Origin: a virus
Direction: 5' to 3' (one strand)
Length of the DNA stretch: 64,000 bases
IMG/VR virus record: IMGVR_UViG_3300025168_011805
Location: 1 to 64,000 of that record
In this document: positions 5,590-62,686 of the stretch, one piece after another
Layout of the letters: each line of letters begins with the position of its first letter
Position numbering within the stretch: the first letter of the stretch is position 1
Notes under the pieces: generated by a model
The model's database searches: none
The model's input: only the letters and a program-made list of their open reading frames with translations
What the model was told of the DNA's origin: nothing
Program-made: the position numbers and the translations under genes

Positions 5590-6102
5590 ATGGCCAAAGC
5601 AAATAATTATATTGATAATACAGTCTTCTTCGAAGCAATGTGTGAGTGGAAGACTCAAATTAAAGAAGCAGAAGAAGTTGATGAAGGAAGACCTCCAGTT
5701 AGTAATTACATTGGAGAGTGCTTCGTCAAGATAGCAGAACACTTGTCATACAAACCAAACTTTGCAAACTATCCATTCAGAGAAGAAATGGTTGGTGATG
5801 CAATTGAAAACTGTATAACTTATGCACACAATTTTGATCCAGAAAAATCAAAAAATCCTTTTTCTTATTTTACTCAAATAACTTACTATGCCTTCATACG
5901 AAGAATAGAAAAAGAAAAGAAACAAAACTTCATTAAGTTTAAAATGATGGAACAGTTAGATACAGATGGATCTATGAGCAGTTGGTTTAAACATAATTAT
6001 TTTGAAAAAACCGATACAAAAAAAGCAATGGCAACTTATTTTTCTCTAAGTGATAATGATCTAGACAAGTTCACGACAAAGAATAAAAAGAAACCTAAAT
6101 GA
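5590..6102 (+). CDS. 55: Late-transcription sigma factor gp55
   Basis: The protein has 170 residues (T4 gp55 has 185). The segment YPFREEMVGDAIENC followed by NPFSYFTQITYYAFIRRI is the region 2-like core of the gp55 family, which binds RNA polymerase and recognises the TATAAATA late box. Such boxes occur several times in this window (270, 52874, 62002, 63327), consistent with an active late programme. The start follows a GTGGAG site. The gene overlaps gp47 by ATGA. I could not identify a gene for the co-activator gp33 in the window. Confidence 0.92.
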   Translation: MAKANNYIDNTVFFEAMCEWKTQIKEAEEVDEGRPPVSNYIGECFVKIAEHLSYKPNFANYPFREEMVGDAIENCITYAHNFDPEKSKNPFSYFTQITYYAFIRRIEKEKKQNFIKFKMMEQLDTDGSMSSWFKHNYFEKTDTKKAMATYFSLSDNDLDKFTTKNKKKPK

Positions 6103-7148
6103 AAATAGCACTCATAACAGATACACACTTTGGCGTTAGAAATGATTCTCCACATTTCATGGATTATTTTTCTAGATTTTTTAATAACATATTTTTTCCA
6201 TATTGTAAAGAAAATGGAATAACACAATCAATCCATCTTGGTGATTTGATGGACAGAAGAAAGTATGTTAATTATAATACCCTTCATGGTATCCAGAATG
6301 ATTTCATTAAAAATCTAAAAGATAATAATATAAAAATGCATTGTCTCATAGGAAACCATGATGCTTTTTATAAAAACACAAACAAAATAAATTCACTACA
6401 AGAACTCTTTAGTAAAAATGATAATCTTGTAATTTATGACGAACCAACAGAGTTAGTTTTTGACGATCTTTGTATTGGTTTGGTTTCTTGGATCAACAAA
6501 GAAAATTATGATGATTCGATGGAGTTCTTGCAGAATTGTAAATGTCCTATAATTTGCGGACACTTTGAATTGACTGGGTACGAAGTTATGCGAGGAGTTA
6601 AATTTCATGGTGGCATGGATGACAATTTCCTAAAAAGATTCGAGATGGTTTTAAGTGGACATTTTCATAGCAAAAGCAGTAAAAATAATGTTCATTACTT
6701 GGGGACTCCTTACCAAATGACATTCAGTGATTTGAATGATAAAAAGGGATTTCATATCTTAGACACAGAAACAAGAGAAATTGAATTCATTGAAAACCCA
6801 GAGAGAATGTTTTTCAGTTTCGAGTATGATGATACAAAAGAAAATAATGAAGTTTTAGATATTGACTTGGAAGAATTTTCTAATAAATACATTAAGTTGT
6901 TCGTGAATAAAAAAGAAAATTCTGTTGAATTTGATTCATTTTTAGATACCCTAATGGATGTTGATAACTTAGATTTGACTGTTATTGAAGATATGGGTGA
7001 TGTTGAATTTGATGAAGATATGATTGATATGGGACAAGATACGATCAGTATAATTTCTAATGAAATAGATTTGAATACTGATTTAGATAATAAAGATTCT
7101 TTAAAACAATTAGCAAAAATGCTTTATATGGAGAGCTTATCACTATGA
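6099..7148 (+). CDS. 47: Recombination endonuclease subunit gp47 (Mre11-like)
   Basis: The 349-residue protein (T4 gp47 has 339) carries the calcineurin-type phosphodiesterase motifs in order: DTHFG near residue 8, GDLMDRR near 48, GNHDAF near 87, GHFE near 150 and GHFHS near 187. With gp46 it forms the nuclease that resects broken DNA ends to give 3' tails for UvsX. The last 100 residues are acidic and helical. The gene overlaps gp55 and the following SET-like gene by four bases each, so it is in one translational chain, while its partner gp46 is separated by that extra gene. Confidence 0.93.
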   Translation: MKIALITDTHFGVRNDSPHFMDYFSRFFNNIFFPYCKENGITQSIHLGDLMDRRKYVNYNTLHGIQNDFIKNLKDNNIKMHCLIGNHDAFYKNTNKINSLQELFSKNDNLVIYDEPTELVFDDLCIGLVSWINKENYDDSMEFLQNCKCPIICGHFELTGYEVMRGVKFHGGMDDNFLKRFEMVLSGHFHSKSSKNNVHYLGTPYQMTFSDLNDKKGFHILDTETREIEFIENPERMFFSFEYDDTKENNEVLDIDLEEFSNKYIKLFVNKKENSVEFDSFLDTLMDVDNLDLTVIEDMGDVEFDEDMIDMGQDTISIISNEIDLNTDLDNKDSLKQLAKMLYMESLSL

Positions 7149-39227: not shown

Positions 39228-40487
39228 ATGATGAGTAAAAGACCTAATGGAGTGAGTGTGACTCTTTGTATGATTGTGAAGAACGAGACACACATCATAG
39301 AAGAGTGTCTTCGTTCAATGGCAAAGTATGTTGATCGTTATGATATTACCGACACTGGTTCTGATGATGGAACCCCCGAGCTTATCAAAAAGGTAATGGA
39401 CGAAGAGGGTGTCCCCGGAACTGTCCATCTTTCTGATTGGAAAGGCTTCGGTGATCATGGTGGTAAGATGGGATCAAGAAGTGAAGCAATCAACAATGCA
39501 AAAGCAAGTGGTTCCAAGTATGCGTGGATGATTGACGCAGATGACTTCATCGACGGTGAATTTGAATATCCAAAAAACATGACAGCAGACGGTTATACTT
39601 TAAAGATCGGTAGAGGTGATTTTGTTTGGTGGAGAAACCAAATTTTTAATCTCGATACTGATTGGAGATACGTTGGTGTTTTACATGAGTATGCAGAGTG
39701 TAGAGGTAAACCAAATGCACACATTGAAAAAATTGTAGGGAAGTATTTAATCAATGCCCGCACGGAAGGTAACAGAAATGTTGGCATCACTCCTATTGAA
39801 AAATATTCTCGTGACGCAGATGTGTTGAAAGAAGCTCTGGAAGAAGAACCAGAAAATCACCGCTATTGGTTCTATCTTGGACAGAGTTATTTTGATTCTC
39901 AGCAGTGGGAAAAATCAAGAGATGCTTATAACAAGAGAGCAACTCTAGGTGGATGGAATGAAGAAGTCTACTATTCTCTTCTTCGAGTTGCAATGCTTCA
40001 TGGGATCTTAGAAGATTCCTTTGAGAATATTGCTGCTAAGTTCTTAGAAGCATATCATTGCAGACCTATTCGTGCAGAACCTCTATATCTTCTTTCTAGG
40101 ATGTACAGACAGAAGGATATGCCTGCGATAGCATATCTCTATGCAAAGATGGGACTTGAAATTAATTATCCCGAACATGATATTTTGTTTATTCAAGATG
40201 ACATCTATAAGTATGGGTTGTTGGATGAGATTGGGGCTACTGCATATTATGCAGGAAAACCACATGTTGGGTATCATGCATGTAAGAAACTCCTAGATTC
40301 TAATTTGATTCCTTCTGGTGAGAGAGAACGTGTTATGCAAAATATTAATTCTTATGAAAAGATTTTATCTGAACATCACCAACAAACCGCACAGGTATCA
40401 CTGCAAGATAAACTCAAAGAGAAAGAAAAGAAAGCTTCAATTAAACCAAAGACATACAAAAAGAAAAAGAGAAATTCTAGTAGATAA
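39228..40487 (+). CDS. Family 2 glycosyltransferase with TPR-like C-terminus
   Basis: The 419-residue protein has VSVTLCMIVKNETHIIEECL near residue 9, ITDTGSDDGTPE near 41 and YAWMIDADDFIDG near 97 (DADD metal site). From about residue 205 it is helical with TPR-like repeats (WFYLGQSYFDSQQWEKSRDAYNKRA type). The tail is Lys-rich. GT2-TPR fusions modify proteins or surface glycans with the repeats binding the acceptor. It is the last gene of the island and directly precedes the collagen-like fibre gene, which may be its acceptor, though this is speculative. Confidence 0.75.
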   Translation: MMSKRPNGVSVTLCMIVKNETHIIEECLRSMAKYVDRYDITDTGSDDGTPELIKKVMDEEGVPGTVHLSDWKGFGDHGGKMGSRSEAINNAKASGSKYAWMIDADDFIDGEFEYPKNMTADGYTLKIGRGDFVWWRNQIFNLDTDWRYVGVLHEYAECRGKPNAHIEKIVGKYLINARTEGNRNVGITPIEKYSRDADVLKEALEEEPENHRYWFYLGQSYFDSQQWEKSRDAYNKRATLGGWNEEVYYSLLRVAMLHGILEDSFENIAAKFLEAYHCRPIRAEPLYLLSRMYRQKDMPAIAYLYAKMGLEINYPEHDILFIQDDIYKYGLLDEIGATAYYAGKPHVGYHACKKLLDSNLIPSGERERVMQNINSYEKILSEHHQQTAQVSLQDKLKEKEKKASIKPKTYKKKKRNSSR

Positions 40488-44201: not shown

Positions 44202-44230
44202 TTGACAACATAACTTTTTTACCGTATAAT
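44202..44230 (+). promoter_or_regulatory. Perfect sigma70 promoter TTGACA-N17-TATAAT
   Basis: TTGACA at 44202-44207 and TATAAT at 44225-44230 with a 17-base spacer match the host consensus exactly. Transcription would start near 44237 and read dUTPase, the DUF1599-like gene and DNA polymerase, with likely extension through uvsX, gp41 and gp61. Confidence 0.9.
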
Positions 44231-44260: not shown

Positions 44261-44830
44261 ATGTCAGAGACTATGAAAATATACAAATTGTATTCGAATG
44301 TGATACAAGTAAAAAAGGGCAGTGAAGGTGCTGCTTGTTTTGATGTTCATGCACACATGCGTGGACCTGTTCTTGCTGAAGATATCCCCCCAACAATCCG
44401 ATCAATAAATTGGTTTGATTCTTATAATCAACCACATGAAACAATCCCCGAAGTTACATTCATGAGTGATGATCCTGTAACCACTTTCCAACTCGGACCC
44501 AAATGTCGTGCGTTGATTCCAACTGGTATGGTATTGGATATTCCCGCTGGTTTCTCTGGTAGAATCCACCCTCGATCAGGTAACGCATGGAAAAATGGTG
44601 TTACTTTGATAAATGCAGAAGGTGTTATTGATTCAGACTATTGCAATGAATTGCTTGTCCCCTTATACAACACCACAAACATTCCATTTGTCATTACACA
44701 TGGTGATAGGATTGCACAACTTGAAATTACAAAACCATATAATGAAATAAGTCTTATAACTTACACAGAAGCAAAACCAAAAAATCAAAAAACCAACCGG
44801 AAGGGTGGGTTTGGATCTACAGGAGTATGA
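44261..44830 (+). CDS. dut: dUTPase
   Basis: The 189-residue protein has the trimeric dUTPase motifs in order: GAACFDVHA near residue 22, PTGMVLDIPAGFSGRIHPRSGNAWKNGV near 87-114, NAEGVIDSDYCNELLVPLYN near 118-137, GDRIAQLEI near 146, and the C-terminal RKGGFGSTG that closes the active site. It hydrolyses dUTP to dUMP, keeping uracil out of DNA and feeding dUMP to ThyX (52161-52886). An insert of about 30 residues between motifs 1 and 2 is longer than usual. It is driven by the perfect sigma70 promoter upstream. Confidence 0.93.
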   Translation: MSETMKIYKLYSNVIQVKKGSEGAACFDVHAHMRGPVLAEDIPPTIRSINWFDSYNQPHETIPEVTFMSDDPVTTFQLGPKCRALIPTGMVLDIPAGFSGRIHPRSGNAWKNGVTLINAEGVIDSDYCNELLVPLYNTTNIPFVITHGDRIAQLEITKPYNEISLITYTEAKPKNQKTNRKGGFGSTGV

Positions 44831-45153
44831 ATATGAATCGTGACGAATTACTAAAATTTCATGAAGAAATTTGTGGAACTGCTAGAGATCTGATGAATCT
44901 TAAAAATAGAGATTATGCAGGCAATGATGGAACCGAACCATTTGCAAATTTTACCCGATGTGAATCTATGGGTATATGTGAAACTGAACAAGGTTTTATG
45001 GTTAGAGTTACCGACAAGATGAGTAGGTTGAGTTCTTTCCTCAAATCAGGAAAAATGCATGTTGAAGATGAGAGTTTTTCTGATACAATAGTTGATGTAA
45101 TAAATTACATGGTTCTTTTGGCTGCTTACGTTAAGGATAAAGATAGTGAATGA
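44827..45153 (+). CDS. DUF1599-like nucleotide-modification-associated protein
   Basis: The 108-residue protein contains KNRDYAGNDG, FANFTRCESMG, GFMVRVTDKMSRLSSFL and FSDTIVDVINYMVLLAAY, matching the DUF1599 family (also called Nmad-type, helical, related to MazG-like nucleotide pyrophosphatases). A nucleotide-handling job suits its place between dUTPase and polymerase. It overlaps dUTPase by ATGA; ATG 44833 is an alternative start. The gene overlaps the polymerase start by eight bases. Confidence 0.7.
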   Translation: MNMNRDELLKFHEEICGTARDLMNLKNRDYAGNDGTEPFANFTRCESMGICETEQGFMVRVTDKMSRLSSFLKSGKMHVEDESFSDTIVDVINYMVLLAAYVKDKDSE

Positions 45154-47692
45154 AACTTTCTATACAAATGTTTCTTTAGTTGGTGATGGAATTTTATACA
45201 GAGGAATTAAAAATGGTGTCCCTGTAAAAAAAGTTGACAAGTATAGACCAACTCTGTTTGTTCCATCTCTCGAAAACAAGACAGAATACAAAACACTAGC
45301 AGGTGAATATGTAGAACCTTTCCAGCCTGGCTATGTTACCGACTGTAGAAGATTTGTAGAACAATACAAGGGTGTTGGTAATTTTAAAATTTATGGAAAC
45401 ACTGATTATGTTTATCAATTCATAGGAGATAGTTTTCCTAATGAAGTTCCTTATGATTTTTCAAAAATTCCTATTGCTTATATTGATATTGAAACAACAT
45501 GTGAAGATGGTTTCCCCGACATAGACGATCCAAATGAAGAAGTCATAGCGATAACATTTACAGTAAATGAAAAGACATTTGTTTTTGGATCTAAACATTA
45601 CGAACTACCAGATGAAGAAAATTTAGAAGTCTTCGTCTCTGATAATGAAACTGAATTATTGAATTCGTTTATATCTGTGTGGGAGAAAAATTGTCCACAT
45701 GCTATAACCGGGTGGAACATAAAGTTTTTCGACATCCCCTATCTCGTTCAAAGAATACAGAGAGTTTTGGGTCCTGTGGAATCTTCTAGGCTTTCACCTT
45801 GGAAAAAGATACGAGAGAAGCAAATCGAAAGACAAGGTAAGAAGCACACAACTTTTCAGATACTGGGTGTTTCCATTCTAGATTACCTTGATTTGTACAA
45901 GACGTTTACCTATGTAAATCAAGAATCATATCGTCTCGATCATATTGCTTTTGTGGAACTGGGAGAGAGAAAGCTTTCATATTCTGAATTCGATTCCATC
46001 AAAGATTTCTATAAAAAAGATTTCCAAAAATTTGTTGAGTATAATGTCAAAGATGTTCGTCTAGTTCAAAGACTAGAGGAGAAGTTGAAGCTAATTGAAC
46101 TTGCGATGGCACTCGCATACTCTGCGAAGGTAAATTACGAAGATGTATTTTCTCAAGTTAGAACTTGGGATCAAATCATATATCATTATCTTCGTAGTCA
46201 CAATGTAATTATTCCTCCGAAAAAGGAGGGCAATAAAGATGATCAGTATGTTGGTGCATATGTTAAGGATCCCATTGTCGGACAGCATGAATGGATCGTT
46301 TCTTTGGACTTGAACAGTCTGTATCCTCACCTTATCATGCAATATAATATCAGTACAGAAACCAAAGTCTATCCGGGTGAAGATACTTTTGGCATAAGTG
46401 TGGATAATATTTTGAAGACATCACCAGAAACTTATCATCACGGTTGTCATAAAAAACTAGAAAAGTTTAAGTCTATGGGATATTCTGTTGCTGCTAATGG
46501 TACATGTTACACAAAACAGCATCAAGGATTCTTGCCTGCGCTCATGGAGAAAATGTACAAAGAACGTAAGCACTACAAGAAATTGATGATCGAAGCACAG
46601 AAAAAGAAACAAAAAAATCCCGATGATCAAAGTATTGACTTCGAGATTGCCAAGTATCACAACTTCCAACTGGTTAGAAAAATTCAACTTAACTCAGCTT
46701 ATGGTGCGATTGGTAACCAATACTTTCGTTATTATGATGTTCAAATGGCAGAAGCAATTACAACATCCGGACAACTTAGTATTCGATGGATAGCAAACAA
46801 ACTAAATGAATTTTTGAACAAAACAATTGGTACGGAGAATTACGATTATGTGGTTGCAAGTGATACCGATTCTGTATATCTTCGCCTTTGCAATCTTGTT
46901 GACAAGGTGTGTGGTGGGAAAACCAAGTCAGAGATCGTGGAATTTCTCGACAAAGCATCACAAGAAATAATTCTTCCATTCATCGAGAAACAGTACGATG
47001 AACTTGCAAAGTTAATGAATGCTTATGATAACAAGATGATCATGGAACGAGAGTGTATTGCAGACAAGGGAATCTGGACTGCAAAGAAAAGGTACATGCT
47101 TAATGTCTTAGATAATGAGGGGATTCGATACACAGAGCCTAAACTTAAAATCATGGGTATAGAAACCACACGTTCTTCTACACCAGCAATAGTCCGCGAG
47201 AAACTCAAGAAAGCAATATCACTGATCATGTTGACTGATGAGACTACTGTTCAATCTTTCATAGCTAAATTTAGAAAGGAATTCAATGGATTGGATCCGG
47301 AGGAGGTTTCATTTCCTCGTGGTGTTTCTAACTTAGAAAAGTATAGAAGTTCTTCAGAGATTTATTCCAAAGGAACTCCGATTGCAGTGAAGGGAGCACT
47401 TTTGTATAATCATTACATCAAGAGTAAAAAATTAGATAGAAAGTACAATCTCATTGTGGAGGGTGAGAAGGTTAAGTTTACTTACCTGAAAGAACCAAAT
47501 CCTATCTCTGGTCCTAAAGGTGATAAGGTTATTTCTTTTGTAAATTCTCTACCGAAAGAGCTTGATCTTCACAGATTTGTCGATTATAATAAGCAGTTCG
47601 AAGTTGCTTTTCTTGATCCAATTATGAAGATTTTGACTGTCATTAATTGGGACTTTGAGAAGAAATCTACATTGGAAAGTTTATTTTGTTGA
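45146..47692 (+). CDS. 43: DNA polymerase gp43 (family B)
   Basis: The 848-residue protein (T4 gp43 has 898) carries exonuclease motif DIET at 114, polymerase motif A DLNSLYP at 388, motif B KIQLNSAYGAIGNQ near 511 and motif C DTDS at 573. The C-terminal LESLF resembles the clamp-binding tail. It starts with GTG at 45146 after AAGGA, overlapping the previous gene. In T4 this gene follows regA; here the glycan island and fibre genes lie between. It works with gp45, gp44, gp62, gp41 and gp61. Confidence 0.96.
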   Translation: MNETFYTNVSLVGDGILYRGIKNGVPVKKVDKYRPTLFVPSLENKTEYKTLAGEYVEPFQPGYVTDCRRFVEQYKGVGNFKIYGNTDYVYQFIGDSFPNEVPYDFSKIPIAYIDIETTCEDGFPDIDDPNEEVIAITFTVNEKTFVFGSKHYELPDEENLEVFVSDNETELLNSFISVWEKNCPHAITGWNIKFFDIPYLVQRIQRVLGPVESSRLSPWKKIREKQIERQGKKHTTFQILGVSILDYLDLYKTFTYVNQESYRLDHIAFVELGERKLSYSEFDSIKDFYKKDFQKFVEYNVKDVRLVQRLEEKLKLIELAMALAYSAKVNYEDVFSQVRTWDQIIYHYLRSHNVIIPPKKEGNKDDQYVGAYVKDPIVGQHEWIVSLDLNSLYPHLIMQYNISTETKVYPGEDTFGISVDNILKTSPETYHHGCHKKLEKFKSMGYSVAANGTCYTKQHQGFLPALMEKMYKERKHYKKLMIEAQKKKQKNPDDQSIDFEIAKYHNFQLVRKIQLNSAYGAIGNQYFRYYDVQMAEAITTSGQLSIRWIANKLNEFLNKTIGTENYDYVVASDTDSVYLRLCNLVDKVCGGKTKSEIVEFLDKASQEIILPFIEKQYDELAKLMNAYDNKMIMERECIADKGIWTAKKRYMLNVLDNEGIRYTEPKLKIMGIETTRSSTPAIVREKLKKAISLIMLTDETTVQSFIAKFRKEFNGLDPEEVSFPRGVSNLEKYRSSSEIYSKGTPIAVKGALLYNHYIKSKKLDRKYNLIVEGEKVKFTYLKEPNPISGPKGDKVISFVNSLPKELDLHRFVDYNKQFEVAFLDPIMKILTVINWDFEKKSTLESLFC

Positions 47693-58574: not shown

Positions 58575-60533
58575 ATGTTTGAATTACCGTCTTTATATCA
58601 ATCTTTTATTCACCTTTCCCGATACTCTCGTTGGCTTCCAGAAGAAGGAAGACGAGAAACTTGGGAAGAGACAGTAAAAAGATACTTTGATTTTTTTGAA
58701 AGTCACCTCAAGGAAAATAATAATTACAAAGTTTCTTCTAAGGAAAGAAAAGAATTAGAAGAAGCTGTTTTGAATTTGGAAATTATGCCTTCAATGCGAG
58801 CATTGATGACGGCAGGCGAAGCATTGAAGCGTGACAATGTAGCTGGATACAATTGTGCTTATGTTAGTTCAGGTAGAGTTCGATCCTTTGATGAAATTTT
58901 ATATGTGCTCATGTGTGGCACAGGGGTTGGGTTTAGTGTTGAACGTGATTTCCTAAAGAAGCTACCAACAATTGCAGAGGAGTTTGAGGACAGTGACACG
59001 ACCATTGTTGTTCAAGATAGTAAGATGGGTTGGGCGAAAGCATACAAAGAACTCACCTCGCTTCTTATTGGAGGTCAGGTTCCGAAATGGGACGTATCAA
59101 AGGTTCGACCTGCCGGAGAAAGACTCAAGACTTTCGGTGGTAGAGCTTCGGGTCCGCAACCACTGGACGATTTATTCAAATTCACAGTGGAAACCTATAA
59201 GAGAGCTTCTGGAAGAAAACTCACATCCATCGAATGTCACGATATCATCTGCAAGATTGCTGAAATTGTCGTGGTGGGGGGAGTACGAAGAAGTGCGCTT
59301 ATCTCATTGTCTTCACTTACCGATGAGCGGATGCGTGATGCGAAGCACGGACAGTGGTGGATTTCCGACTCGCAAAGAGCATTATCGAATAACTCGGTAG
59401 CATACAAAGAGAAACCAGAAATTGGTACATTCATGGAAGAGTGGGTTTCACTATACAAGAGTAAGTCTGGTGAGCGTGGTATCTTCAACCGAGACGCTGC
59501 AAAGAAACAGACTGATAAATCAAACGAATTCAGAAGTTCATTGGGTGATTCATATAGACATAGAGATCTCAATTACGATTTTGGTACAAATCCTTGTAGT
59601 GAAATTATTCTTCGTGATAAGCAGTTTTGTAATCTTACGGAAATCGTTGTCAGAGGAAATGATACGAAGGAATCTCTTGAGAGAAAAGTTAAACTTGCAA
59701 CTATTCTCGGGACATGGCAGTCCACTCTCACAAACTTCAAATACCTTTCGAGTGACTGGGAAAAGAACTGTGAAGATGAACGTCTTCTTGGTGTGTCTAT
59801 GACTGGTATCATGGACTGTAAGCTAACAAATGGAAAGACAAAGGGACTAGATGATCTACTAAAAGATCTTAAGACTTGTGCAATTAAACAGAACAAGTCT
59901 AGTGCAAAAAGCATTGGTATTAATGAATCAGTTGCAATTACCTGTGTCAAACCATCTGGAACTGTCTCGCAGCTTGTAGACGCTGCGTCAGGGATCCACG
60001 CAAGACACAGTGAGCACTACATCAGAACTGTCAGAGCTGATACCAAAGATTCTCTTTGTGTCTTTATGCAGAAGGAAGGATTCCCCTGTGAACCTGATGT
60101 AATGAAGCCAGATCACACCATGGTGTTTTCTTTCCCAATAAAAACACCAAAGAATGCAGTTTTTAGAACTGATATGACTGCTATTGAACAACTAGAATTG
60201 TGGTTAGAATATCAAAGGAATTGGTGTGAGCATAAGCCTTCCGTTACTGTTTCAGTGAAAGAAGATGAGTGGTTACAGGTAGGATCTTGGGTATATGACC
60301 ACTTTGATGAAGTATCTGGGGTGTCTTTCTTACCTTTCTCGGATCATACATATAAGCAAGCTCCATATCAGGAGTGTTCCGAAGAAGAATATAAGATGCT
60401 TTTGAAAAAGATGCCAAATAATGTTGACTGGAGTGAATTGGGAAAATATGAAGAAGAAGATAATACAGCAGGGAGTCAGTCTTTTGCCTGTTCAGGCAAT
60501 TCCTGTGAATTAGTAGACTTGACAAACAACTAA
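58575..60533 (+). CDS. nrdJ: Class II (B12-dependent) ribonucleotide reductase
   Basis: The 652-residue protein resembles the monomeric adenosylcobalamin-dependent reductase. Key Cys are present: Cys 94 in AGYNCAY, the thiyl-radical Cys 341 in NPCSEI, Cys 352 in FCNL, and a C-terminal redox pair C639-x4-C644. MCGTGVGFSVE near residue 115 and CVKPSGTVSQLVDAASGIHARH near 456 are further family motifs. It makes dNTP precursors in one polypeptide without a NrdB partner and needs host B12. T4 uses class I NrdAB instead. It is expressed from a sigma70 promoter at 58518. Confidence 0.9.
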   Translation: MFELPSLYQSFIHLSRYSRWLPEEGRRETWEETVKRYFDFFESHLKENNNYKVSSKERKELEEAVLNLEIMPSMRALMTAGEALKRDNVAGYNCAYVSSGRVRSFDEILYVLMCGTGVGFSVERDFLKKLPTIAEEFEDSDTTIVVQDSKMGWAKAYKELTSLLIGGQVPKWDVSKVRPAGERLKTFGGRASGPQPLDDLFKFTVETYKRASGRKLTSIECHDIICKIAEIVVVGGVRRSALISLSSLTDERMRDAKHGQWWISDSQRALSNNSVAYKEKPEIGTFMEEWVSLYKSKSGERGIFNRDAAKKQTDKSNEFRSSLGDSYRHRDLNYDFGTNPCSEIILRDKQFCNLTEIVVRGNDTKESLERKVKLATILGTWQSTLTNFKYLSSDWEKNCEDERLLGVSMTGIMDCKLTNGKTKGLDDLLKDLKTCAIKQNKSSAKSIGINESVAITCVKPSGTVSQLVDAASGIHARHSEHYIRTVRADTKDSLCVFMQKEGFPCEPDVMKPDHTMVFSFPIKTPKNAVFRTDMTAIEQLELWLEYQRNWCEHKPSVTVSVKEDEWLQVGSWVYDHFDEVSGVSFLPFSDHTYKQAPYQECSEEEYKMLLKKMPNNVDWSELGKYEEEDNTAGSQSFACSGNSCELVDLTNN

Positions 60534-60547
60534 ATTTAAAGTATAAT
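60519..60547 (+). promoter_or_regulatory. Perfect sigma70 promoter TTGACA-N17-TATAAT
   Basis: TTGACA (60519-60524) lies inside the end of the reductase gene, and TATAAT (60542-60547) is 17 bases on. This exact consensus drives the small membrane gene and the porin, with transcription starting near 60554. Confidence 0.9.
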
Positions 60548-60562
60548 AGAACTAATTAGTGA

Positions 60563-60578
60563 ATCCACATTTGTGGAT
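60563..60578 (+). promoter_or_regulatory. Leader hairpin near the 5' end of the porin transcript
   Basis: ATCCAC and GTGGAT pair around an ATTT loop, about 10 bases after the expected transcript start. Hairpins here often protect mRNA from decay, which would fit strong porin expression. Confidence 0.45.
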
Positions 60579-60607
60579 CATGTACCTCTAACAAAAGGAG
60601 AAATGCT

Positions 60608-60831: not shown

Positions 60832-61989
60832 ATGAGTATTATTAAAATTGGCGCGACATGTCTCGCCCTATGCACTTGCGGAGTTGCAAGTGCAGATGAT
60901 TCAGACATGATGGGTGACAACAATGTCACCCCCGAGATGATGCAGCAGCGAATGAATCGTATGGTTGATCAAGGTATGATCACACCCGATATGATGCAGC
61001 AGCGAATGGATCGTATGGAGATGGGTGAAGCAGTTCGTTCGGATGCTTCCACTCGAATTAGTCTTAGTCCTTCGACTGAAGGCTTTTCGTTGGATCTGGG
61101 TGGATTTATCCAGACAGGATACAGCTACAATGGCGGTGCAGATCTCGATGCTGAGTATGGATTCTCAGTTGATCGTGCTCGTCTAATTCTATCTGGTGAC
61201 TTTGGTAAGGATGCAAGTTACCTCCTGAGTGGACAGTGGAGTGATGTAACTTCCACGTTTGATCTTCTCGACGCTCGTGTTGATTTTAGAGCGTTTGGTG
61301 TTACCAATGTTCGAGTTGGTCAGTTCGTTCCTGCTTTCTATAGTGGTTTCGTCACTGATCCTCGTTCTCTTATCACCAACAACTATAGCGTTTCTGCCCT
61401 TACATACGGACAGGGACGAGGTCAGGGTGTAGAACTTTCGGACTTCATTGTATCTGATGTTGTTGAACTTTCTGCATTTTACACCAATGGTTTTGGTGAC
61501 ACTAATGGTGTTGACGCAGATAATGATTATGCAGTTGGTGCTCGCGCATCTGTCGGACTCGGTGGTGGATTTTCCATCGGTGCTGGTTATGCATACAACA
61601 ATAATAATGTAACGGATTACAGCAGTTATACTGTTGATCTCGAATACACTAGTGGTAAGCTCGATTTCAACGCTGCATGGATTGCAAACAACGAAACTGA
61701 GGATTGGGATAATTATTCCATCGTTGGTACTCTTGCATATCAGTGTCTGGACAACCTTCAGGGTTTTGTTCAGTATGAGTATGGTGCTCTTGGTGGTGTC
61801 AGCGACAAGCTGAATATTGCAACTATTGGTTGTAACTACACCATCCACGAGAATATCGTATGGACCAACACTGTTGGATATGCTTTCGAAGGTATTGACT
61901 CTGGTTTCAACACAGATAACACAGGTTGGCGTTCCAGTGCCGACGACGGACAGTATGTCGTTCGTAGTGTTATTCAGGTCAGTTTCTGA
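60832..61989 (+). CDS. Outer-membrane porin (phosphate-selective porin O/P-like)
   Basis: The 385-residue protein has a signal peptide (KIGATCLALCTCGVASA, cut after residue 21), a short helical part with two copies of MMQQRM-x-RM (about residues 36-62), then a beta barrel from about residue 78 (FSLDLGGFIQTGYSYNGG, FSVDRARLILSGDFG, NVRVGQFVPAF) and a C-terminal VIQVSF with the final Phe used by the BAM machinery. These are features of OprO/OprP-type 16-stranded porins. The start is ATG 60832 after AGGAG, not the earlier in-frame ATG at 60730. Codons are C-ending like gp23, suggesting high expression. It would be inserted in the host outer membrane during infection. The substrate is not known. 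Confidence 0.85.
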   Translation: MSIIKIGATCLALCTCGVASADDSDMMGDNNVTPEMMQQRMNRMVDQGMITPDMMQQRMDRMEMGEAVRSDASTRISLSPSTEGFSLDLGGFIQTGYSYNGGADLDAEYGFSVDRARLILSGDFGKDASYLLSGQWSDVTSTFDLLDARVDFRAFGVTNVRVGQFVPAFYSGFVTDPRSLITNNYSVSALTYGQGRGQGVELSDFIVSDVVELSAFYTNGFGDTNGVDADNDYAVGARASVGLGGGFSIGAGYAYNNNNVTDYSSYTVDLEYTSGKLDFNAAWIANNETEDWDNYSIVGTLAYQCLDNLQGFVQYEYGALGGVSDKLNIATIGCNYTIHENIVWTNTVGYAFEGIDSGFNTDNTGWRSSADDGQYVVRSVIQVSF

Positions 61990-62062: not shown

Positions 62063-62066
62063 ATAA

Positions 62067-62102
62067 GAGAACCCTTTACCTTTATTGGTGAGGGGTTTTC
62101 TC
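62067..62102 (+). terminator. Hairpin before the late promoter, terminator-like
   Basis: GAGAACCCTTTACC pairs with the 3' arm ending GGGGTTTTCTC (two-base bulge, loop TTTATT). The T-rich 3' arm is weak as a classic U tract, so termination is plausible but not certain. It ends the porin region directly before a late promoter. Confidence 0.5.
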
Positions 62103-62125: not shown

Positions 62126-62686
62126 ATGATAATAGCCGGTATTGACTACAGTTTAAATGGTCCAGCAATTTGTGTTTTTAATTCAGATGAAGGTTTTACT
62201 TTCAATAATTGTTCTTTTTATTATCTGACAGATACAAAGAACCTAGCAAAAACATTTTTGTCTAGAATTCATGGGAAATTATTTGAGACATACAATCATG
62301 ATTGTGAAAGGTATGATACCATATCAGAGTGGGCAGTTGAAATGTGTCAGGGGTGTGAACAAGTTGCTATTGAGGGCTATGCATATGCCGCAAAGGGTAG
62401 GGTTTTCAATATAGCAGAGAATACAGGGTTACTTAAGTATAAGTTTTTTCAACAGTCTGTGCCAATTGATGTGATTGCTCCGTCTGTGGTTAAAAAACTA
62501 GCTACCGGAAAGGGAAATGCTGATAAGACAGCGATGCATGACGCTTTTGTCAAGGAAACAAAACACAATTTATTCAACCTGATAACTCCAAATAGAAAAG
62601 GTATAGGAAACCCTATATCAGACATAGTTGATTCATATTATGTTTGTAAAGGTCTTTACTATGACATAATTTCACAGAATTCATAA
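62126..62686 (+). CDS. RuvC-like Holliday junction resolvase
   Basis: The 186-residue protein has the RNase H-fold acidic set: Asp 7 in GIDYS, Glu 83 in VAIEGYAY, and Asp 166 and Asp 169 in NPISDIVDSYYV, with NADKTAMHDAF near 131. It would cut branched DNA before packaging, doing the job of T4 endonuclease VII (gp49), which was not found in the window. The start follows a GGAG site after a late-promoter-like box, fitting late expression. Confidence 0.75.
   Translation: MIIAGIDYSLNGPAICVFNSDEGFTFNNCSFYYLTDTKNLAKTFLSRIHGKLFETYNHDCERYDTISEWAVEMCQGCEQVAIEGYAYAAKGRVFNIAENTGLLKYKFFQQSVPIDVIAPSVVKKLATGKGNADKTAMHDAFVKETKHNLFNLITPNRKGIGNPISDIVDSYYVCKGLYYDIISQNS

Follow-up and report, generated by a model that had tools for sequence, protein, structure and literature searches.

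Phage-encoded porins are already known, both from Lc of the lambdoid phage PA-2, a temperate phage whose porin is of the enterobacterial type, and from predicted entries in the BFVD. Among cellular porins, the OmpM tether-porins of diderm Firmicutes carry a helical periplasmic stalk that binds peptidoglycan (PMC10628300). The papers that we searched contained no report of a phage porin cassette such as the one described here, the 'outer membrane porin' of PMC12285232 being the bacterial KdgM step in a scheme and not a phage porin. Searches of GenBank phages likewise gave no relative for the porin, the small partner protein, a second porin (L095) or the PiT-like permease that accompanies the cassette in some relatives.

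The cassette lies in IMG/VR virus record IMGVR_UViG_3300025168_011805, a fragment of 70,557 bases, and the stretch analysed here (the window) comprises bases 1 to 64,000 of that record. The phages that carry the cassette are marine. Two genes on the plus strand, one encoding a protein of 66 residues (P0002; 60,608-60,808) and one a porin of 385 residues (P0001; 60,832-61,989, coding part to 61,986), are flanked upstream by a class II ribonucleotide reductase (RNR; 58,575-60,533, plus strand; phrog_367, E 5.7e-189) and downstream by a RuvC-like Holliday junction resolvase (62,126-62,686, plus strand; phrog_159, E 2.2e-30). Most related loci likewise have an RNR gene 5' of the cassette, the typical gene row being ThyX, class II RNR, cassette and RuvC. 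After the porin gene a strong hairpin (62,066-62,101, plus strand; -23.5 kcal/mol), with no clear T run behind its stem, is a possible terminator. The record also encodes a helicase, an SbcCD-like pair, a clamp loader, a DnaB-like helicase, a DNA polymerase and a tail tube protein. About 25 genes at 16,322-38,918 form a glycan or surface-sugar synthesis island of a size unusual for a phage, including an epimerase/dehydratase, UDP-glucose dehydrogenase, UDP-GlcNAc 2-epimerase, FkbM methyltransferase, nucleotide-sugar transferase and aminotransferase, and a glycosyltransferase gene lies just past the island at 39,228.

An earlier note, made from the letters alone, had read the larger gene as an outer-membrane porin from its signal peptide, beta-barrel pattern and terminal Phe, and all three features were borne out, the barrel by structure prediction. 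The 385-residue open reading frame begins with a signal peptide, MSIIKIGATCLALCTCGVASA, of residues 1-21 (60,832-60,894, plus strand), which ends in GVASA with cleavage before DD and in which G17, V18, A19 and A21 are invariant among four homologues, and it ends in Phe385, invariant in 37 homologues. Structure prediction with AlphaFold, on the window protein together with 36 relatives, gave a 16-stranded closed barrel of residues 88-385 (61,093-61,989, plus strand; pLDDT 81, pTM 0.73) with a long loop 3 (residues 166-195) directed inward. OprP (2o4v) is the best match to this fold in the PDB (Foldseek, E 2.4e-14), followed by BpsOmp38, Omp32, PorB and OmpC-type porins; 317 PDB structures match at E <= 0.001, and the top ones are all porins. 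A sequence search of solved structures with the porin returned no meaningful match, so that the fold search alone succeeded, and in Pfam the window porin falls below the cut-offs, with 24 bits against 27 for Porin_4 and no match to PF07396. Its relatives are more readily classified: 10 of the 37 match PF07396 (best E 6e-10) and 16 match PF13609, and the host porin L116 scores 32.5 bits against the PF07396 cut-off of 20.9. The predicted structure, these matches among relatives and the existence of a similar porin family in hosts together support the assignment of a phage-encoded outer-membrane porin with an OprP/OprO-like fold. Between signal peptide and barrel lies a predicted helical stalk (residues 34-74; 60,931-61,053, plus strand; helices 34-46 and 52-74), which comparison with host porins identifies as a degenerate version of their coiled coil and VLADADTR linker. 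The stalk contains an in-frame tandem duplication (60,925-61,020; TPEMMQQRMNRM / TPDMMQQRMDRM) that is missing in L003, a homologue of 94% identity.

The ratio dN/dS of the porin lies between 0.11 and 0.19 in close pairs, indicating that the gene is under purifying selection. Conservation on either side of loop 3 (VRVGQF and the GQGRSQG stretch) is among the highest in the protein, and the outer loops are conserved nearly as well as the strands. This pattern favours a working pore over a variable decoy, and conservation strongest around loop 3 is consistent with selection acting on the pore and thus with a channel. We consider it slightly better than an even bet that the porin is a working channel which keeps solute entry open in the infected host, acting with the small partner protein in a cassette of planctomycete phages. 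The main rival is receptor replacement, in which the phage porin would replace or dilute a receptor porin while the small protein blocks DNA entry, giving two-layer superinfection exclusion. Such a surface takeover is attractive in that the phage porin resembles the host porin in its layout, has a small helical partner, shares its genome with the large glycan-synthesis island as a sign of other surface remodelling, and has a precedent in the Lc porin. The conservation of outer loops and loop 3 flanks speaks against it, as selection seems to fall on the pore, and it leaves the permease linkage described below unexplained; we judge it possible, on the unlikely side.

The small protein bears on both readings. 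It consists of an N-terminal part containing Cys, a short helix and one long hydrophobic helix (residues 29-65), the last predicted at modest confidence (AlphaFold, pLDDT 61). Hydropathy likewise gives one moderately hydrophobic stretch, no signal peptide is present, and the protein probably sits in the membrane. An alignment of 30 members has the conserved core RSxLxxLALxPFAWDGVxW. Searches of Pfam, PHROGs and NCBIfam, including superinfection and holin families, gave no significant match, the nearest being the superinfection immunity family PF14373, reached by one of the 30 members at E 0.054 and by the window protein not at all; this again weighs against exclusion of superinfecting phages. 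The protein was not found among 298 Phycisphaerae genomes, in a query run without a positive control, and on this evidence it looks phage-specific.

The earlier note had placed the porin on a transcript of its own; this does not hold, as the promoter is followed first by the small gene, which has a ribosome-binding site of its own, and the two genes form a conserved pair. In a scan for the porin alone (80 loci kept), 62 of the 66 distinct loci with room for the small gene had it no more than 300 bases away. Scanning for the small protein alone (74 loci, 58 distinct small genes), we found an adjoining barrel gene in 48, namely the porin in 38 and a shorter barrel in 10; five of the remaining ten loci stop at a contig edge and five are without a barrel. 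One branch has the gene order reversed with porin and small gene still adjacent, and a few phages have either gene without the other. By these counts porin and small gene are a conserved pair, almost always found together. That the same barrel always stands beside the small gene proved wrong, given the ten distinct loci with the shorter form. This alternative barrel, of about 257 residues with a C-terminal Phe (L054:6194-6964 and L080:3539-4312), has no Pfam match and appears to be distantly related to the porin (profile E down to 2e-5; hhalign probability 90%). In L091, L098 and L102 (around 5600-6165) the small gene has no adjoining barrel; a lipoprotein gene and a gene for a small membrane protein precede it and a nuclease-like gene follows. 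Wider scans of IMG/VR raised the totals to at least 149 small-protein loci and at least 136 porin loci. It could be argued that the porin is bound to the virion, or that it is carried along as a passenger and does nothing in infected cells, as the genes 5' of RNR are large and possibly structural. We regard this as very improbable, in view of the retained signal peptide and C-terminal Phe, the low dN/dS, a linkage kept in many phages and in both gene orders, and the position of the cassette among genes of nucleotide metabolism and replication.

The pair is preceded by an exact consensus sigma70 promoter (TTGACA-17-TATAAT; 60,519-60,547, plus strand), as had been claimed, the -35 box of which overlaps the last RNR codons. 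Only two exact consensus promoters occur in the 70.6-kb record, with 0.03 expected per strand; the other (44,202-44,230) lies upstream of the genes for dUTPase (44,261-44,830) and DNA polymerase (45,146-47,692). Among 54 distinct related loci, 30 have at least 11 of 12 consensus positions just 5' of the small gene (0.22 expected from shuffled sequence) and 13 have the exact promoter (0 expected), and both boxes are kept in relatives while the spacer diverges. These observations support control of the cassette by an exact consensus promoter of host type. Expression is probably early, since the promoter type is the same as that of the dUTPase/DNA polymerase operon. This timing bears on a further reading, that the small protein is a holin-like helix and the porin a late envelope leak, the two weakening the envelope as an aid to lysis. 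A single long hydrophobic helix in a 66-residue protein would suit such a function, whereas a promoter type common to early replication genes would not, no holin profile matches the small protein, and a mere leak would not call for a porin of high fidelity that purifying selection maintains. A separate candidate lysis pair, a 150-residue membrane protein followed by an 82-residue lipoprotein, is encoded at L006:7551-8248 (record bases 67,551-68,248), and we think an envelope-weakening function improbable. A C-ending codon bias had also been attributed to the porin gene; it is present in weak form, the share of C among C/T-ending codons being 0.32 where the median is 0.26 (rank 3 among 55 open reading frames), and neighbouring genes have similar shares (RNR 0.30, small gene 0.31).

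Between promoter and small gene lies a structured 5' leader. The hairpin claimed there is present (60,559-60,581, plus strand), just after the likely transcription start, and equivalent hairpins of different sequence stand at the same place in L003, L004 and 22 more leaders. A predicted small hairpin (CUCU-AACAAAA-GGAG; 60,586-60,600, plus strand) pairs with the small gene's ribosome-binding site, and is also predicted in L003, L037, L041, L045 and others. The window thus has a short form of the leader, with one hairpin and the small hairpin at the ribosome-binding site, which as a whole folds at -11.9 kcal/mol. As a group, 25 leaders are more stable than their shuffled copies (mean z -2.7). 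Compensatory changes in two hairpins were found only in a subgroup of 15 longer leaders, in which 98.5% of cells are paired and five pairs have changed on both sides, and slid controls collapse. Tandem-hairpin leaders of 100-140 bases occur at L066:2014-2118, L071:5887-5991, L095:5899-6003 and in 12 more loci, and on comparative evidence this form is a candidate new RNA element. Rfam yielded no family for the leader, either at E <= 1 in the stretch from the window or at gathering score in any of six relatives. The leader probably serves to stabilise the mRNA or to control its translation, its hairpins being the elements that would do so.

Relatives of the porin in cellular genomes point to its source. 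The search of host genomes that the earlier note had proposed, made with the porin alignment across all phyla (84,980 prokaryote genomes), gave five confirmed relatives, all in Phycisphaerae/Planctomycetota metagenome-assembled genomes (MAGs). Within Planctomycetota, 129 of 294 sampled genomes have a porin match, the strongest being in genomes sampled from the class to which G001 belongs. In a quick tree with long branches and a midpoint root, whose host sequences come solely from Planctomycetota, the 37 phage porins group in a single clade (SH-aLRT 100) that adjoins porins of marine, small-genome Phycisphaerae MAGs (SH-aLRT 84 for the join). Phage and Phycisphaerae porins have in common the linker VLADADTRASLQG; this linker (VLADADTRxSLQG) and the coiled coil are clear in the phage relatives L029, L071, L081, L088 and L095, and the linker is degenerate in the window porin (EAVRSDASTRISL). 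From the tree and the shared motifs, the porin apparently derives from OprP-like coiled-coil porins of Phycisphaerae-type hosts by a single old capture. In some relatives (L076:2822-4423, L079 and L005) the gene for a secreted dockerin-type protein lies beside the cassette, with long matches of 48-63% identity to Phycisphaerae chromosomal proteins, and is a probable recent transfer of a host gene. Given the porin relatives, the tree and the dockerin-type matches, it is likely that the host is a Phycisphaerae planctomycete.

If the porin is a channel, the genes that travel with it may indicate its solute. A PiT-like permease family was found at 61 IMG/VR loci of marine phages (for example L080:4453-5397, L054:7104-8048 and L302-L360). 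The gene, encoding 315 residues, follows the barrel in the shorter-barrel phages and in L086, which has the long porin; other phages, among them L050 and L064, have it farther upstream in the gene row of the cassette, between primase and ThyX. The duplicated PiT signatures (AND..GT and PxSTT) can be read in the alignment as IANDSIQTLGT, GVPVSTS, HDMANIA and DIPMSTTW, and a profile comparison with the solved TmPiT (6l85) gave E 1.1e-5; the match to PF01384 is weak (15-17 bits against a cut-off of 33.7). The occurrence of this permease in the same module of some relatives, with a cassette within 6 kb in 15 of 53 distinct permease loci, provides circumstantial support for uptake of a nutrient, possibly phosphate. 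Several observations count against a channel or uptake function: the record of the window, itself a fragment, has no such permease gene; the other 38 permease loci have no cassette within that distance; the window porin is strongly acidic (net charge -29; host porins are acidic too, at -10 to -31); and it scores below the Pfam cut-offs, and some phages have one gene of the pair alone.

Under the channel reading, which we favour, the RNA polymerase of the host, guided by the main sigma factor, would transcribe the two-gene cassette early from the consensus promoter. The host would export the porin and fold it into the outer membrane, a localisation suggested by signal peptide, barrel and C-terminal Phe, where it would stand open as a channel and maintain or increase the influx of solutes, with phosphate or other anions as leading candidate. 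This influx would continue during phage DNA synthesis, for which the phage has an RNR of its own, and the small helical protein would most likely reside in the inner membrane and serve there as a partner dedicated to the porin. Taken together, the data suggest that these phages rebuild the outer envelope of the host early in infection, perhaps for uptake of nutrients such as phosphate. The fuller proposal, that of a host-derived envelope uptake route comprising an early OprP-like porin and an obligatory small membrane protein, in some phages with a PiT-like permease, all under a consensus promoter and a structured leader, we put forward tentatively. The porin appears old in phages and is kept by purifying selection, and it is tied to a previously undescribed family of small proteins. 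If the proposed role is true, the locus would clearly exemplify how a virus can reshape the outer membrane of its host, the cassette would give a genomic handle on the phages of Phycisphaerae, a class whose viruses are little known, and phage upkeep of nutrient entry during infection would become a directly testable question.

Comparison with known systems sets the cassette apart from each of them. The porin shares with OprP/OprO (PF07396, Porin_O_P) the 16-stranded barrel and the region of the GQFK..F..E / DRS motifs, and differs in having 15% sequence identity, an acidic character and a different N-terminal stalk. Its likeness to the best viral fold matches, the phage-encoded outer-membrane barrels A0A8S5S2G8 and A0A6J5L4P1 of the BFVD, is at 12-17% identity, and with Lc of PA-2 it shares being an outer-membrane barrel encoded by a phage. 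OmpM is likened to it by architecture only, as a porin with a helical stalk. The Phycisphaerae coiled-coil porins (for example L105, L106, L108 and L116) have the same succession of signal peptide, coiled coil, linker (RAxEVRSLVxDVLADADTRASLQG, also in phage porins) and barrel, and the same C-terminal motif VKWTTDxGYA..GWR..QLQLxF. From these the phage porins differ at about 22% identity and in lacking the segment xATAGYNGGFFxxSADGN after the linker, as well as in the small partner gene, which the genomes of the host class did not yield. What is new, in comparison with all of these, is a conserved, promoter-driven cassette of porin and small protein of planctomycete origin.
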